Part shown: positions 2,241 through 10,166 of the stretch, in pieces | Position numbering within the stretch: the first letter of the stretch is position 1 | Layout of the letters: each line of letters starts with the position of its first letter | Origin: Lachnospiraceae bacterium | GTDB lineage: Bacteria; Bacillota; Clostridia; Lachnospirales; Lachnospiraceae | Direction of reading: 5' to 3' | NCBI GenBank assembly: GCA_017404585.1 | Contig: JAFRCB010000047.1 | Span: 1 to 11,886 of the forward strand | Length of the DNA stretch: 11,886 nucleotides | Program-made: the position numbers and the translations under genes | Notes under the pieces: generated by a model | The model's input: only the letters and a program-made list of their open reading frames with translations | What the model was told of the DNA's origin: nothing | Database searches by the model: none

Positions 2241-2924
2241 ATGCCGGTCGTAAAAATTAAGGATAAGACGCAGCATTTTCAGTTCGATGAGGCAATAAAG
2301 ATGCTGCGTACAAATGTAGAATTTGCGGGAGAAAATGTTCAGGCGGTGTGCATCACCAGCTGTCTTCCCAATGAAGGAAAGTCATCTATTGTTGCCCGGC
2401 TTGCGGAGTCCATGGCTCAGGCGGGCAAAAAAGTTGTGCTGATTGATGCAGATCTCAGAAAATCCGTGCTCCTCGGGCGCTATATTGTCGAGGGTGCGGA
2501 GCTCAAGGGCCTCAGCCATTTCCTGACAGGTCAGGGGACCATTAGCGAATGCCTCTGCCAGACGGATTATCCGACACTTCAGATGATATTCTCCGGACCG
2601 GATGTTCCCAACCCGGCGGAGCTTCTGGGAGGCAAACGTTTTTCGGCGCTTCTTGAGGCTCTGCGAAAGAATTATGACTATGTGTTGATTGATACACCGC
2701 CTCTCGGCTCCGTTATCGATGCGGCTATCGTATCAAGACAGTGCGACGGCGTCGCTCTTGTCATAGCGTCGGGCGAAGTCAGCTATAAATTTGCTCAGCA
2801 GGTAAAAGCTCAGCTCGAAATGTCCGACTGTAAGATACTCGGTGTGATCATGAACAAGGTCAACATGGAATCCGGCAAGGGCTATTACGGAAAATATTAC
2901 GGAAAATACTACGGAAGAGATTAA
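2241..2924 (+). CDS. CpsD/CapB-family bacterial tyrosine kinase (BY-kinase)
   Basis: A 227-residue cytoplasmic P-loop kinase, the expected partner of the Wzz-like protein encoded just upstream. BY-kinases autophosphorylate a C-terminal tyrosine cluster and so regulate capsule or exopolysaccharide polymerisation and export. Visible: the family N-terminal motif 'EAIKMLRTN' (18-26), Walker A 'SCLPNEGKSS' at 40-49 with Lys47, Walker A' 'VLIDADLR' at 66-73 with Asp69 and Asp71, and Walker B 'VLIDTPP' at 148-154 with Asp151. The C-terminus carries three YYG units (Tyr215/216, 219/220, 223/224), encoded by a 12-base tandem repeat. The length is normal for CpsD/CapB. The genes are separated by 2 bases, so translational coupling is likely; argS starts 9 bases downstream. 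No CpsB- or Wzb-type phosphatase is in the window. A ParA/MinD ATPase is the main alternative, but the tyrosine tail and the Wzz partner argue against it. Confidence 0.93.
   Translation: MPVVKIKDKTQHFQFDEAIKMLRTNVEFAGENVQAVCITSCLPNEGKSSIVARLAESMAQAGKKVVLIDADLRKSVLLGRYIVEGAELKGLSHFLTGQGTISECLCQTDYPTLQMIFSGPDVPNPAELLGGKRFSALLEALRKNYDYVLIDTPPLGSVIDAAIVSRQCDGVALVIASGEVSYKFAQQVKAQLEMSDCKILGVIMNKVNMESGKGYYGKYYGKYYGRD
2883..2918 (+). repeat. 12-base tandem repeat encoding the kinase tyrosine cluster
   Basis: Three 12-base units (2883-2894, 2895-2906, 2907-2918), the first two identical (TATTACGGAAAA) and the third diverged at two positions. Each encodes Tyr-Tyr-Gly plus Lys or Arg. Change in unit number by slippage would stay in frame and alter the number of phosphorylatable tyrosines. 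Confidence 0.85.
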
Positions 2925-3644
2925 GGAAAGTATATGGAAAAGATTCAAAATGTACTCACATCAAAGCTTAAGGAAGCTTTTCAGGCGGCAGGCTACGATC
3001 CGTCCTACGGTGAGGTCCGTCTCTCGGACCGCCCGGATCTGTGCGAGTTCCAGTGCAACGGGGCTCTGGCAGCTGCTAAGAAATATCACAAAGCTCCGTT
3101 CATGATCGCTGATGATGTTGTGGCAGCGCTTGACCGCGGCGAGAGGATATTTGATGCCGATGTAGTCCGTCCGGGCTTTATCAATATCAACGTCACCGGT
3201 GAATTTCTTGCGGATCTGCTCGGACAGATGGACGCCGATCCATACCTGTCTGTTCCGCAGACAGATCCCCCAAAGAAGATCGTGATCGATTACGGCGGAC
3301 CGAACGTCGCAAAACCGCTTCATGTCGGACACCTTCGCAGCGCTGTCATCGGCGAGAGCATCAAGCGGCTGGCAAGAGCATGCGGTGATGATGTGGTCGG
3401 TGACGTCCATCTCGGAGATTGGGGCCTTCAGATGGGTCTCATTATCACTGAGATGAAAATAAGAAAACCGGAGCTTATTTATTTCCGTGATGACGCGCCG
3501 ATCGATATGGATGATTATCCGAAGGAAGCGCCGTTCACCCTGGCTGAGCTCGAGGAAGTCTATCCGTGCGCTTCAGCGAAGTCCAAGGAAGATGAGGCAT
3601 ACAAGGCGGAAGCACTGGAGGCTACTCATCTTTTACAGATGGGT

Positions 3645-3647
3645 TAG
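3645..3647 (+). other. In-frame amber (TAG) codon inside argS
   Basis: The codons read CAG ATG GGT TAG CCG GGC TAC CGG GCT ATG TGG, giving Q-M-G-stop-P-G-Y-R-A-M-W. One base change gives Lys (AAG), Gln (CAG), Glu (GAG), Ser (TCG), Leu (TTG), Trp (TGG) or Tyr. None of the ten genes in the window whose ends are visible stops at TAG (seven TAA, three TGA, argS counted by its final TAA). That is compatible with TAG being rare or reassigned, but the sample is too small to show it. Confidence 0.95.
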
Positions 3648-3663
3648 CCGGGCTACCGGGCTA
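3648..3663 (+). repeat. 8-base perfect tandem repeat directly after the argS TAG
   Basis: CCGGGCTA occurs twice in a row (3648-3655 and 3656-3663). With the TAG, the sequence can also fold: TAGCC at 3645-3649 is complementary to GGCTA at 3659-3663, with a 9-base loop. The repeat encodes the conserved Pro-Gly-Tyr-Arg-Ala, so it is not an insertion. Confidence 0.75.
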
Positions 3664-4798
3664 TGTGGCTCAAAATCATGGAACTGTCCGTGGCTGATCT
3701 TAAGAAGAATTATGCAAGGCTGGATGTCTCCTTCGACCTGTGGAACGGTGAGTCCACAGTTCAGCCATATATTGCTCCGATGGTAGAGAAGCTGAAAGCG
3801 GAAGGCTATGCTCACTATGACCAGGGGGCATTGGTCATAGATGTTGCGGAACCGGACGATAAGATCGAGGTTCCGCCCTGCATGGTCCTGAAATCAGACG
3901 GAGCTTCACTCTACAATACGACGGACCTTGCGACTATTGTCCAGAGAATGGAAGACATATGCCCCGATGAGATTATTTACGTCGTCGATAAGCGCCAGTC
4001 CCTGTATTTCATGCAGGTGTTCCGTGCAGCCAGAAAGGCCCGTCTCATCGGTGAGAATACAAAACTTGTTCACGTCGGTTTCGGCACAATGAACGGTAAG
4101 GACGGGAAGCCCTTTAAGACCCGCCAGGGCGGTGTCATGAGGCTTGAGACCCTCCTTGATCAGATCAAAGAGTCGATGGTAAGAAAAATCGCGGAGAACA
4201 AGAATGTTCGTCTGGAGGATGCCGACGGAACGGCGGAAATCGTATCGCTCTCAGCCATCAAGTACGGTGATCTGTCCAATCAGGCGTCTAAAGATTATGT
4301 TTTTGATGAAGAGAAGTTCACGGCGTTCGAGGGCAATACGGGGCCGTACATTCTCTATACGATCGTTCGCATCAAATCTATCCTTGAGAAGGCAGCTGCC
4401 GCAGGCTTTGCGTCAGACGGCAGACTTCTTGCGCCGGCGGATCCCGCCGAGAAGTCTCTCATGCTGGATCTTGCCCGTTTCGGAGCATCGATCGAGGAGG
4501 CTTACGGTGAGCTTGCTCCGCATAAGATCTGCGCTTATATTTATGAGACCGCAAATGATTTCAACCGCTTCTATCACGGCACAAAGATCCTGTCCGAGGA
4601 GGATGAGGCAAGGCGCGGAAGTTACCTGAGACTTCTGTCCATTGTTCTCAAGGTCTTAAATAAGAGTATCGATATACTCGGATTTGAAGCTCCCGATCAT
4701 ATGTAATCGATGACCTGTCTTTTTGCGGCCTGCCTGAAAGCGGGTGCTGAAGCGTAACCGGCAGCTGACCGGGTCTTTTCGGAGTTAAAGGTATACAG

Positions 4799-4827
4799 TT
4801 GCAAACTGACATTAATTACGGTATACT
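4799..4827 (+). promoter_or_regulatory. Sigma-A type promoter for the Ser/Thr kinase gene
   Basis: TTGCAA at 4799-4804 and TATACT at 4822-4827 are separated by 17 bases, the optimal spacing, and match the consensus at five of six positions each apart from one further -35 mismatch. Transcription would start near 4834, which is the first arm of the terminator hairpin. The rest of the 185-base gap after argS (4707-4798) shows only a weak CCGG/CCGG stem at 4758-4772 followed by TCTTTTC, a possible but poor argS terminator. Confidence 0.65.
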
Positions 4828-4832
4828 ATGTC

Positions 4833-4865
4833 AAAAGGTACAGCAAAAGAGCTGTGCCTTTTTTT
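4833..4865 (+). terminator. Intrinsic terminator between argS and the Ser/Thr kinase gene
   Basis: AAGGTACAGC (4835-4844) pairs with GCTGTGCCTT (4851-4860) over 10 bp with one U-G wobble. The loop is AAAAGA and a run of seven T residues spans 4859-4865. It would end transcripts from the wzz/kinase/argS operon. It lies directly downstream of, and essentially at the start point of, the predicted kinase promoter, so it could also work as an attenuator. Confidence 0.8.
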
Positions 4866-4891
4866 ATTTCATAAAGACCGGAGGCGGCAAA

Positions 4892-6307
4892 GTGGAAAAG
4901 ATAGGCAAATACAGGGTGCTGAAGAAAATCGGGAGCGGGGGATATGGCAGCGTTTATGTGGTCCTTGATGATCGGATAGGGAAAAAATGGGCGATGAAGG
5001 AACTGCCGAAGTCGAAAAAAGGCGGCAGTGACGGCCTGTTCGTGCTTAAGGGTCTTGATCATCCTGCCGTACCGAGGATCGTAGAGGAACTCGAGGATGA
5101 GTATTACATCTATGAGATCATGGACTATATAGAAGGAGAGACTCTTGCGGAATACGCCCGGGCAGGACGTATCAGGTCGGCGCAGCAGCTGCTTGACATA
5201 TGTACGGAGATAAGCGGGATCATAGCGTATCTGCATAATCAGGACCCCCCTGTCATTTTCCGCGACATAAAGCCCGATAACTTTATTGTCACGAGTGAAG
5301 GGAAAATAAAGCTGGTAGACTTCGATATAGCCATTGTAGGTGAACAGACAGATAACATGCCGCTTGGCACGCGCGGTTATGCCGCTCCGGAACAGCATTT
5401 CGGAATCTGTTCCATGGCGGCGGACGTCTACAGTCTTGGCGTGACGATCGGTGAGTTCACGGATAAACTCTCGCAAACAGGCGGAAACAGCCGGGTATTT
5501 GAAAAAAGGACCCTGATGAAGATACGGAAGGTCGCCGGTAAAGCTGCGAACAGAGATGCCGGATCGCGGTATTCGGATGCCGCGGAAGTGTGGGAAGAGT
5601 TCATGCGGATCCGGCGGATGGACAGAGTGGAGAGGATAGCTGCTGTCTCAGGTGCTTTGATGCTGCTGTTTACGGTACTTGCATTCAGCCTGAGAGGTAT
5701 TTATCGGGATGCCGTAAGGTCCGACGCGGGGACCAGAGTAGTTCATTGTCTTGAATCGTCAAGGAAGACTGCAGACAGGATCATGCTTGAAATGGCGGAA
5801 GACGCTAATGCCGACGCCCGTCCGGACCTCGCCCGGTTCCATGCGGATATTATGAAGGCGGGCAGTTTGACAAAATCTACGGATGAGGAGACGGCAAAGG
5901 AGGTCACGAGGCAGCGGATACTTTATTACGAGCTGGCAGGCAGCCTTGCCGACAGCGAAGATGAGCGGGATCTGCAATATCGGAAGGCCATAGCGGAGAT
6001 ACTTGTTCTGATGGAGAATGCGGGGGAGCAGGATCTCGGTTTCTTAAGACTCAAGGCGGCGGAACTCAGCAGGAGCGTGGGAGATACGGGAAGCGCTGAG
6101 AGATTCCTTGCGGAGTTTATCGCAGATGAACACTCTGATGAGGATAAAATCTCCGCGTGGACAAAAGTCATGGCAATGAGACTATATGACGAGAGAAACC
6201 CCGACACAGCAGAACAGGCCCTTAGGGAAGTCCTTGAGATAGACGGAGCCGAACAGGACGAGCTGGTCATGAAATACAGAGAAATCATTGAAAATATAGG
6301 TCGATGA
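4892..6307 (+). CDS. Membrane Hanks-type Ser/Thr protein kinase with extracytoplasmic helical region
   Basis: The 471-residue protein starts at GTG 4892, chosen because GGAGG (4880-4884) lies 7 bases upstream and the kinase fold begins at once ('KIGKYRVLKKIG'). Longer in-frame starts would run through the terminator hairpin. Kinase domain, about 7-240: glycine loop 'GSGGYGSV' (14-21), ATP-binding Lys36 in 'AMKEL', catalytic loop 'FRDIKPDN' (123-130) with Asp125 and Asn130, metal-binding Asp143 in 'VDFDIA', and 'APE' (165-167). The core residues are all present, so it should be active, but HRD is FRD and DFG is DFD. One membrane segment lies at about 249-267, followed by about 200 residues outside, rich in charged amphipathic helices and TPR-like ('AEQALREVLEIDG'). 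There are no PASTA repeats, unlike PrkC/PknB. No phosphatase gene adjoins it. The downstream secreted protein gene is probably co-transcribed and may be a partner; target and ligand are unknown. Confidence 0.9.
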   Translation: MEKIGKYRVLKKIGSGGYGSVYVVLDDRIGKKWAMKELPKSKKGGSDGLFVLKGLDHPAVPRIVEELEDEYYIYEIMDYIEGETLAEYARAGRIRSAQQLLDICTEISGIIAYLHNQDPPVIFRDIKPDNFIVTSEGKIKLVDFDIAIVGEQTDNMPLGTRGYAAPEQHFGICSMAADVYSLGVTIGEFTDKLSQTGGNSRVFEKRTLMKIRKVAGKAANRDAGSRYSDAAEVWEEFMRIRRMDRVERIAAVSGALMLLFTVLAFSLRGIYRDAVRSDAGTRVVHCLESSRKTADRIMLEMAEDANADARPDLARFHADIMKAGSLTKSTDEETAKEVTRQRILYYELAGSLADSEDERDLQYRKAIAEILVLMENAGEQDLGFLRLKAAELSRSVGDTGSAERFLAEFIADEHSDEDKISAWTKVMAMRLYDERNPDTAEQALREVLEIDGAEQDELVMKYREIIENIGR

Positions 6308-6360
6308 GCCCTCGCACTGTCAGACCAGTAAAAGTGAGACTTGATAAAGGAGGCAATTAT

Positions 6361-7470
6361 ATGGCGGCAGTCGAAATTACCGGAAAAATGAAGAAAATCG
6401 GAGCTTTTCTGCTCCTTCTTATTATGTGCGCGTCATATCCCGTGCAGGCCGACCAGCAGTTTGTCCTTACGGTCGGAGATACTATGGTCATTCCGTGTCT
6501 CCTTGAGATATGGTCGGACCAGAGTGTGAGCTGTGTGATCAGCAACCCGGAAGTGCTTATGACAGACGGCAGCGGGCGGGCTGTAATTGCGCTCGCGGAA
6601 GGAACCTCGGATGTATACGTCCATATGACCAACCCGGAAAGCGACATGCGCTATACATTTGTCGTCGAGCCTGCTCTGCGATGGGAGACCGCGGGGGATT
6701 GGGAACTGCCGGAAGAGACGGCTGCCGACGGCGGAGCAGCTGCAGGTGACGGAACCCGTGTCGGCGATGGTGCGGAGGTCAATGAAGGAAATCATGTCAG
6801 CGGTGGTGCTAAGAACGGTGGGAGGTCCGGTGCCGGCAATGAGACAGAGGTCAACGGCGAGCCCCAGATCGGCGTTGAAGGCCAGGCTGACGGAGAGACT
6901 TATGCAGGCGATGAGGCACATGTCAGCAGTGGAACAACGGTCAATGACACTGGTCGTGAAGGCAGGGCTTTGGCGGACGAGAGAACTGACGCTGACGGCG
7001 GGGCTTCCCCGGGCAGCAGCACAGACTCACAGCAAGGAGCGCATTTGTCGGAGGAAGACCCTGTCGACTCAGAGTTCGACCTGCGTATGCCGGAGGAAGA
7101 CCGTGCTGACTCAGAGTCGGATCTGCACATACCGGAAGACGAGCGCGGTGCGCGTGAGATGACGGAATCTGTCCCGTTCTGGGAGGACCGGGGCAGCGGA
7201 GGGATCACGTTCCGGGTGATCGGGGATGATTTGTCCGAAAAAACAGAGCTGACGGAGGGCTCCGACAATCAAGATGCAAAGTACAGGCCGTTCGCATATC
7301 TCGAAAGTGACGGGGAAGTAGCGCCTCTTTTCGTGTGCGCCGCCGGACGTGAAGTGAGATGGAAATATGTCGGCAGGATCCTCTATATTGAAGCGGCTCC
7401 GACATATACCGGTCCTTATAGGGTGTGTGCCCGCGACAGCAGGAGAAATATCTATTATTTTAGTTCCTGA
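6361..7470 (+). CDS. Secreted protein with Ig-like (Big-type) N-terminal domain and acidic repetitive linker
   Basis: I do not recognise a named family. The 369-residue protein starts at ATG 6361, preceded by AAAGGAGG (6346-6353). An earlier in-frame ATG at 6304 overlaps the kinase stop but has no such site. Residues 1-30 look like a signal peptide ('MKKIGAFLLLLIMC', cleavage likely after 'PVQA'). Residues about 33-103 resemble a bacterial Ig-like fold ('LTVGDT', 'ISNPEVL', 'GSGRAVIALAEGTSDVYV'), with Cys46 and Cys58. Residues about 117-300 are a Gly/Asp/Glu-rich, probably disordered linker with loose 'EVN/HV' periodicity and a 14-residue tandem repeat at 231-258. The C-terminal 65 residues look folded, aromatic-rich and carry Cys326 and Cys356. 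No LPXTG motif, transmembrane anchor or SLH domain is visible, so it is either released or held by binding. Its place directly after a membrane kinase with an external domain suggests a shared envelope role; that is inference. Confidence 0.72.
   Translation: MAAVEITGKMKKIGAFLLLLIMCASYPVQADQQFVLTVGDTMVIPCLLEIWSDQSVSCVISNPEVLMTDGSGRAVIALAEGTSDVYVHMTNPESDMRYTFVVEPALRWETAGDWELPEETAADGGAAAGDGTRVGDGAEVNEGNHVSGGAKNGGRSGAGNETEVNGEPQIGVEGQADGETYAGDEAHVSSGTTVNDTGREGRALADERTDADGGASPGSSTDSQQGAHLSEEDPVDSEFDLRMPEEDRADSESDLHIPEDERGAREMTESVPFWEDRGSGGITFRVIGDDLSEKTELTEGSDNQDAKYRPFAYLESDGEVAPLFVCAAGREVRWKYVGRILYIEAAPTYTGPYRVCARDSRRNIYYFSS
7051..7140 (+). repeat. 42-base tandem repeat in the linker of the secreted protein
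   Basis: Units start at 7051 and 7093, with a degenerate third start at 7135; the period is 42 bases (14 codons). The encoded unit is E-E-D-x-x-D-S-E-x-D-L-x-x-P (residues 231-244 and 245-258). Its high acidity fits a flexible spacer or a cation-binding stretch. Confidence 0.8.
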
Positions 7471-8615: not shown

Positions 8616-10166
8616 ATGTGGAATACAGTTTTATTCGATCTTGACGGAACTCTTACGGATTCCGGCGAGGGGATAACAAAAAGTGTGCAGTATGCGCTTG
8701 AAAAGGAGTTTGGAATGCAGGTCCCTCTCTCGGACCTGCGATGCTTTGTAGGACCTCCGCTCAAAGAACAGTTCATGAGCTTTGCGGGTGTATCTGAGGA
8801 GGAGGCAGTCAGGGCAGTTGAGCGCTATCGCGAGCGCTACAGGCCGAAGGGCATTTACGAGAACTATCTGTATGACGGTATAAAGAGTGTGCTTCGCCAG
8901 CTGCATGATGAGCACTTTACATTAGCTCTTACATCTTCAAAACCGACGATGTTCTGCAGACAGATCCTTCGCATGTTCAATATTGACGAGTATTTCACCG
9001 CCGTTGTCGGCAGTGATATGGACGGCCGTCGTACAGATAAGTATGAACTCATCGAGGAGACAATACGCGAGCTGGGTATGGAGGAACTCCGCGATGAGAT
9101 CGTGATGGTCGGCGACAGAAAATACGACTGTATCGGTGCAGCTGCTGCAGGCATAGACTGTATAGGCGTCACTTACGGTTTCGGATCCAGAGAAGAATTG
9201 GAGGCTGAGTGGCCTGCCTGCATCGTTGACAGCCCGATCGAGCTTCGAAATGTTCTCATAGGACAGGCCAGAAGCGGGATGAGCGGAACGGGAGGCAGTA
9301 CGTTCGGAAGTGAAAAATCCACTGACAGTACAAGGCTTTTCGTAAGGCCGACTGTCATGCCCGAGGATGGTGGTATATTTCGCTGTATCTTTACCTGTGT
9401 GGTGCCGGTGGCGCTTGCGTTCATCATCTCCGGCATCTTATATATGATCATCATATGGGGACTGCAGATATTCCTGCCGCAGATAGAGTTCGACAATACG
9501 TTTCTGGTCGTTTTGACCGGTATTGTGGACTTTATCCTGATTCCTTTTTTCTATATTATGTACAGGCATGATGAGATTAAGAGGATGACTTACGGACGGA
9601 CAGAGCGCATCCTGAATCTCAATGCGTTCGGCGCGGCAGCGGTGCTTATCGTTGCTTTGTTTTCAATCGGATTCGCGGATACCATCCAGGTGCCGCTCGG
9701 AGTGCTGATCCAAGACGAAGCGGGAGCCGAGATAAACGCGTCTTTGTTTCAGAACGTGAGCCTCATTATCCAGTTCATAAGTCTCTGTGCAATCGGTCCC
9801 GCCTGTGAGGAGCTGATCTTTCGAGGCCTTATGTACAGGAGGGTCAGAGACCTGCTCGGCGTTAGGTGGGCGGTGTTCCTGAGCGCAGTCTGCTTCGGAG
9901 TGTATCATCAGAACCTGACCCAGGGGGTATTTGCCTTTTTCTTCGGTATTGTGCTGGCAGCGGTGTATGAACATTACGGGACGATCTGGGCAGCAATTGC
10001 GGCTCACGCAGCCAATAATCTGTATGCTGTCATATTGAATGCGTTGATTGAACGGGAGATGGTCACGGATACCGGATATCTGTTCATGCTTGTTTTATCC
10101 GCCGCGGCGGCAATTTCGCTGGGATTCTATATCTTTAAATTCGATCAAAAAAAGAATGTGATATAA
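8616..10166 (+). CDS. Fusion protein: HAD phosphatase (phosphoglycolate phosphatase-like) plus CPBP intramembrane protease-like domain
   Basis: One uninterrupted 516-residue frame joins two unrelated families. Residues 1-216 are a HAD hydrolase like Gph/PGPase: 'DLDGT' at 8-12 with nucleophile Asp8 and acid Asp10, a helical cap at about 15-85, motif II Thr106/Ser107 in 'LTSSKP', motif III Lys142, and motif IV 'GDRKYD' with Asp167 and Asp171. A Ser/Gly/Thr-rich linker follows (about 217-252). Residues about 254-510 are a multi-pass membrane CPBP (Abi/Rce1-like) domain with all three motifs: 'EELIFR' (Glu398, Glu399, Arg403), 'FGVYH' (Phe427, His431) and 'HAANN' (His464, Asn468). Both halves keep their catalytic residues, so both may be active; the HAD half should face the cytoplasm. 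Substrates are unknown. The ATG is preceded by GGAG at 8603-8606, and the gap to the amidase is only 6 bases, so they probably share a transcript. A missed stop between two genes is unlikely, since the linker is in frame and no start with a ribosome binding site is evident there. Confidence 0.9.
   Translation: MWNTVLFDLDGTLTDSGEGITKSVQYALEKEFGMQVPLSDLRCFVGPPLKEQFMSFAGVSEEEAVRAVERYRERYRPKGIYENYLYDGIKSVLRQLHDEHFTLALTSSKPTMFCRQILRMFNIDEYFTAVVGSDMDGRRTDKYELIEETIRELGMEELRDEIVMVGDRKYDCIGAAAAGIDCIGVTYGFGSREELEAEWPACIVDSPIELRNVLIGQARSGMSGTGGSTFGSEKSTDSTRLFVRPTVMPEDGGIFRCIFTCVVPVALAFIISGILYMIIIWGLQIFLPQIEFDNTFLVVLTGIVDFILIPFFYIMYRHDEIKRMTYGRTERILNLNAFGAAAVLIVALFSIGFADTIQVPLGVLIQDEAGAEINASLFQNVSLIIQFISLCAIGPACEELIFRGLMYRRVRDLLGVRWAVFLSAVCFGVYHQNLTQGVFAFFFGIVLAAVYEHYGTIWAAIAAHAANNLYAVILNALIEREMVTDTGYLFMLVLSAAAAISLGFYIFKFDQKKNVI

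Follow-up and report, generated by a model that had tools for sequence, protein, structure and literature searches.

A lone in-frame TAG in an otherwise intact arginyl-tRNA synthetase gene of a Lachnospiraceae assembly is probably an assembly error

The gene for arginyl-tRNA synthetase (ArgRS), argS, in an assembly of a Lachnospiraceae bacterium is intact except for a TAG at codon 238, and we infer that this TAG most likely reflects an error of the assembly, in the consensus or through mixing of strains. On this reading the consensus of a fragmentary, metagenome-type assembly would carry one isolated nonsense codon while its host uses the ordinary code, with error as the first cause and a real, recent nonsense allele in some cells as the less likely one. 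Full-length ArgRS would in that case be made, in most or all of the population's cells, from a gene with a sense codon there. Intact near-relatives, ordinary termination at TAG, a gene for release factor 1 (RF1), selection for protein function to either side of the TAG and another lone stop in the same assembly all argue for an error or a passing faulty variant. Among the options listed by the first-pass annotation, an error or a minority variant is thus the favored one, reassignment of UAG and a split ArgRS are not supported, and the second argS that it considered was not found in the assembly. The case is mainly a caution, since a recoding story readily suggests itself when a fragmentary assembly has a single stop within an essential gene; should reads confirm the TAG, the same gene would offer a way to test how cells cope with an interrupted arginine enzyme.

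argS is intact on both sides of codon 238

The window, by which we mean the whole stretch of DNA analyzed (11,886 bases), is one entire contig, C250. The assembly to which it belongs totals 2,157,759 bases over 361 contigs, with a completeness of 64.9% and a contamination of 1.4% as given by the tool. The closest named genome-contig matches of the window are assemblies called Lachnospiraceae bacterium or Clostridiales bacterium; isolate names starting with RUG presumably mark a rumen origin.

The argS frame opens with an ATG at 2934 on the forward strand and runs for 237 codons to the TAG at 3645 to 3647, which is codon 238; the identical frame continues from 3648 to a TAA ending at 4706. The first piece (2934 to 3647, forward strand) contains the N-terminal domain and the first part of the catalytic domain, with what we take to be the HIGH-type motif, and the second (3648 to 4706, forward strand) contains the rest of the catalytic domain and the DALR anticodon-binding domain. 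When the pieces were searched separately, residues 1 to 237 matched the profile TIGR00456 at 5e-35 and the 352 residues past the TAG matched it at 3e-80. With the TAG read through, the full-length score is 399.8 bits against a curated cut-off of 261.65. The Pfam domains Arg_tRNA_synt_N, tRNA-synt_1d (in two parts) and DALR_1 extend over both pieces, and the TAG cuts within tRNA-synt_1d, the catalytic domain. What departs from an ordinary ArgS is the reading frame, which is not uninterrupted, owing to the TAG at 3645 to 3647. Two close relatives are equal in length and align without a gap, indicating that no frameshift is involved. The frame reading, the gap-free alignments and the TIGR00456 and Pfam matches thus bear out what had been claimed from the letters alone: a TAG at codon 238 of an otherwise intact frame, no frameshift, and ArgRS domains kept on both sides. 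A plasmid search with the argS gene gave no matches.

Three other genes of the window were noted in passing. The frame at 4799 to 6307 encodes a protein with a Ser/Thr-kinase-like part, under the curated cut-offs. It is followed at 6304 to 7470 by a protein of 388 residues with an acidic, repetitive-looking middle and no NCBIfam match at E 0.001. A single frame at 8616 to 10166 joins a HAD-type phosphatase-like part to a CPBP-type intramembrane protease-like part, both under curated cut-offs.

Relatives have sense codons at a variable site

The argS profile was searched against 80 genomes, comprising the window's own, 41 further members of its genus and additional genomes from its family and order. 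A match was found in 74 of them, over the family cut-off in 73, and among the over-cut-off matches the window's genome alone has an internal stop. With the closest known protein (P0002) as the query, 39 of the 42 genus genomes gave a match, and again the stop is found only in the window's. The site could be aligned in 111 loci; the 110 besides the window's carry R, D, N, H, K, V and a few other residues, so that the site of codon 238 is variable across ArgRS relatives. The two closest proteins, P0002 and P0003, have arginine at the site, and P0004 to P0010 (89%) have lysine.

The two closest genomes, G025 and G017, have an argS that is whole at the DNA level, encoding ArgRS proteins 95% and 94% identical to that of the window; the G025 protein is identical to P0002. 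Both have a sense codon at the site, arginine in G025 and lysine in G017. The TAG shares no position with the arginine codon of G025 and is one base away from the lysine codon of G017, meaning that a single-base error requires a suitable codon in the window's own species. When the N- and C-terminal pieces were searched separately, the entries among the best 120 matches listed for each look like whole or partial ordinary ArgRS proteins. The nearest N-terminal entry among the matches listed, P0179 (179 amino acids, 95%), ends short of the site and is uninformative there, and a C-terminal fragment, P0122 (343 amino acids), has 80% identity to the matching part of P0002.

Three side observations come from these searches. 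The public near-relative protein P0003 is without exactly the ten residues that precede the TAG site, a gap between residues 227 and 228. A weak, sub-cut-off match to the ArgRS profile at G063:C103:11118-11375, in a genome of another family, lies in an 882-codon frame with one internal TAG; this frame is perhaps another class I synthetase. In one genus genome, G028, the argS match is broken up between two contigs (C365 and C46), one of them carrying two pieces and the other a third.

Selection has acted on both pieces as one protein

Does the gene show the wear expected of a broken copy? Compared with G025, the ratio of synonymous to nonsynonymous codon differences is 62:14 before the TAG and 102:15 after it; compared with G017, it is 65:18 before and 112:16 after. 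Third positions account for 173 of 212 and 193 of 230 differences in the two comparisons, the TAG codon being left out. Of the residues that occur in just one of the three sequences, 12 are in the window's and 10 and 15 in the relatives'. As far as can be judged from sequence, argS is not decaying, neither before the TAG nor after it. The predominance of synonymous differences on both sides suggests that the TAG codon is either very young or not real. Together with the counts of unique residues, it implies that the two pieces have been under selection as a single protein up to very recent times, if not to the present.

UAG seems to keep its ordinary meaning in this genome

Reassignment of UAG to an amino acid in the window's organism had been put forward partly because no gene in the window ends in TAG. 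This stands for the 10 window gene ends checked (7 TAA, 3 TGA; TAG at none) and counts for reassignment. It does not extend to the genome: a simple gene-prediction script, applied to 81 of the assembly's own contigs for genes of 80 codons or more, gave 324 gene ends, of which 161 are TAA, 130 TGA and 33 TAG. Homology supports 70 gene ends, 39 of them TAA, 28 TGA and 3 TAG, one of these three resting on a weak alignment (27% identity). These 70 were obtained after 36 of 117 homologous stretches had fallen short of the reference-frame end and 11 of the remaining 81 had shown no stop within 20 codons.

The RF1 gene, which the first-pass annotation had proposed looking for, was found at the end of contig C233, where it runs for 242 codons before the contig stops. 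Its match scores under the family cut-off (287.7 versus 423.25 bits), a shortfall that leaves reassignment some room and is accounted for by the contig ending inside the gene. RF1 is whole in all four relatives searched. Of the pyl genes, PylS gave no match over the cut-off in the assembly at its 64.9% completeness (best 22.1 bits versus 178.15). Further conserved genes with an internal TAG had also been proposed as something to look for; in 117 homologous stretches covering 37,199 aligned residues, the sole internal TAG is that of argS. No internal stop was seen in the assembly's 38 ABC-transporter matches or its 20 permease-domain matches. Given an RF1 gene and TAG at the ends of ordinary genes, reassignment is extremely unlikely. 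The organism seems to be a relative of Lachnospiraceae with an ordinary code, used throughout the rest of its genome.

A second lone stop lies in dapB

The homology scan behind these counts set 101 of the assembly's own contigs (543,571 bases, including 52,182 N) against 2,232 frames drawn from 800 kb of G027, a genome of the same genus. Its 117 best stretches contain 10 stop cells (5 TGA, 4 TAA and 1 TAG), two of which lie inside conserved genes, namely, the TAG of argS and a TGA in dapB. The other eight were set aside as lying at alignment ends or upstream of gene starts. Two are within 7 residues of an alignment end (L198 at 5811 and L151 at 1913), and three are within 5 residues of an alignment start (L195 at 941, L255 at 891 and L124 at 3628). 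The remaining three (L255 at 2310 and L124 at 1407 and 1362) come shortly before the start of open frames (2313 to 3491 and 454 to 1359) and look like pre-start stops met by reference frames that were drawn from stop to stop, a reading supported by the overlap of the open frames there with the preceding open frame. No Rfam family matches at the set-aside stops upstream of gene starts. An earlier scan by coding statistics, for stops between coding-like flanks, gave 40 candidates on 81 contigs (26 TGA, 7 TAA and 7 TAG, argS being among the 7 TAG candidates) and was dropped in favor of the homology scan as too noisy, because it also flags ordinary gene junctions and opposite strands.

The dapB gene lies on contig C55 (L179), near 9838 on the forward strand, and meets its TGA after about 8 residues, in a glycine-rich stretch. 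It is the single dapB match in the assembly and is cut by the contig end; a family search reports the TGA too. Although this stop is also near an alignment start, it was kept, as 6 of the 8 preceding residues match and the family model covers the stop from its first position. Among 15 other genus genomes searched, of the 41 available, dapB is stop-free in 14 and without a match in 1.

No frame change was found in 447 query-contig pairs, which, together with the absence of stops in the two large families, indicates that errors are not widespread in the assembly. A pair of lone stops in core genes, one TAG and one TGA, is unlike what a changed meaning of UAG would produce and fits consensus errors or minority nonsense alleles. 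The rate of lone stops is drawn from few cases, one further stop beyond the TAG of argS, and the scan responds alike to an error and to a real minority allele.

A real nonsense allele is the second reading

Could the TAG be real? A recent nonsense allele might be present in some or all cells, with ArgRS supplied by an unassembled second copy or by cells that keep a sense codon. We consider this possible but distinctly less probable than an error. The near-relatives are intact, as a recent origin of the allele would have it, and the incomplete assembly leaves room for a second argS, about a third of the genome being missing. Two full-length argS matches do occur in one genome among the 80 searched from the same family (G047, contigs C108 and C255) and in one from the same order (G061, contigs C14 and C3). 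Against it, none of the genus genomes (39 matching of 42) has two full-length copies, no decay is seen on either side of the TAG, and ArgRS is normally essential. The second argS that had been suggested was not found in the assembly, where the single match to the ArgRS catalytic domain is the TAG-bearing gene of the window.

Suppression and a split enzyme are improbable

Suppression of UAG, a split enzyme and recoding were weighed as a group, and even taken jointly they are improbable. Natural suppression or readthrough yielding full-length ArgRS, itself quite unlikely, would benefit from the variability of the site across the 110 other loci, where an inserted residue could be harmless. No CUA anticodon occurs among the nine typed tRNAs (10 Rfam matches, 1 untyped), a small set from an assembly that must be missing many tRNAs, so that a CUA tRNA could be among those missing; none is found either on the 101 contigs scanned, which contain 2 tRNAs and a tmRNA. 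The absence of a stop in any relative's argS also speaks against suppression, as does the fact that the assembly's other lone stop is a TGA. The particular case in which the strain truly carries the TAG and obtains its only ArgRS through a UAG-suppressing tRNA from the unassembled part of the genome is very improbable; if true, the supply of charged arginine tRNA would hinge on suppression.

RNA structure gives suppression mixed signals. An imperfect hairpin at 3620 to 3649 on the forward strand has the TAG in its right arm, as found by folding; the evidence for it is weak and post hoc. Folded as RNA, the 42 bases around it reach -15.6 kcal/mol, versus -11.7 and -12.7 in the two nearest relatives, whereas 34 of 1,737 36-base stretches of the window's argS fold better as DNA, and the hairpin is absent from the inverted repeats listed by an inverted-repeat search. 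The stretch with this upstream hairpin folds somewhat better than its shuffles (z -1.33, 18 of 200 as good), which is in favor of readthrough. Downstream structure of the kind that favors readthrough was not found, as folding of the 100 bases past the TAG is no stronger than that of shuffled sequences (z 0.42, 125 of 200 as good).

A split ArgRS, made as two polypeptides with the second starting at the ATG at 3663, is hardly to be expected. That ATG is in frame, 18 bases downstream of where the TAG begins, and sequence is conserved in both pieces. The methionine it encodes is, however, shared by the nearest relatives, whose ArgRS is unsplit (P0002 to P0010), a stop is seen in none of the relatives, and the cut falls inside tRNA-synt_1d and not at a domain boundary. 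The restart proposed at 3663 also finds no support in the bases before it, where no AGGAGG-like sequence is visible by eye.

Comparison with known systems

The hairpin invites comparison with quasipalindrome template switching, which turns an imperfect inverted repeat into a more perfect one, as PMC7202029 outlines. The window's stretch resembles such a mutation in folding better as a hairpin than those of the two relatives and differs from it in strength, the hairpin evidence being weak and after the fact. A sequencing or assembly artifact at the hairpin could mimic a template switch.

With bacterial stop-codon reassignment the gene shares an in-frame stop in a conserved gene; the window's genome differs in having a single such site and in still ending genes with TAG. 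By the account given in PMC8629427, the bacterial code changes known before it all reassign UGA. A search of titles returned no paper named for a natural stop in a bacterial argS; this concerns titles and makes no claim about what is in print.

Set beside the bacterial class I ArgS (TIGR00456), the window's gene has the same domain order and length, is 95% identical to an intact relative and differs by one TAG at codon 238. With the nonsense errors and minority alleles of metagenome-assembled genomes, to which it would probably belong, it shares a lone stop inside a conserved gene, intact relatives and a second case in the same assembly. Premature stops are taken as a sign of sequence error in the rumen assemblies of PMC6785717, there for indels in long reads, as far as that account goes, while the window's assembly has no frame change in the 447 pairs.
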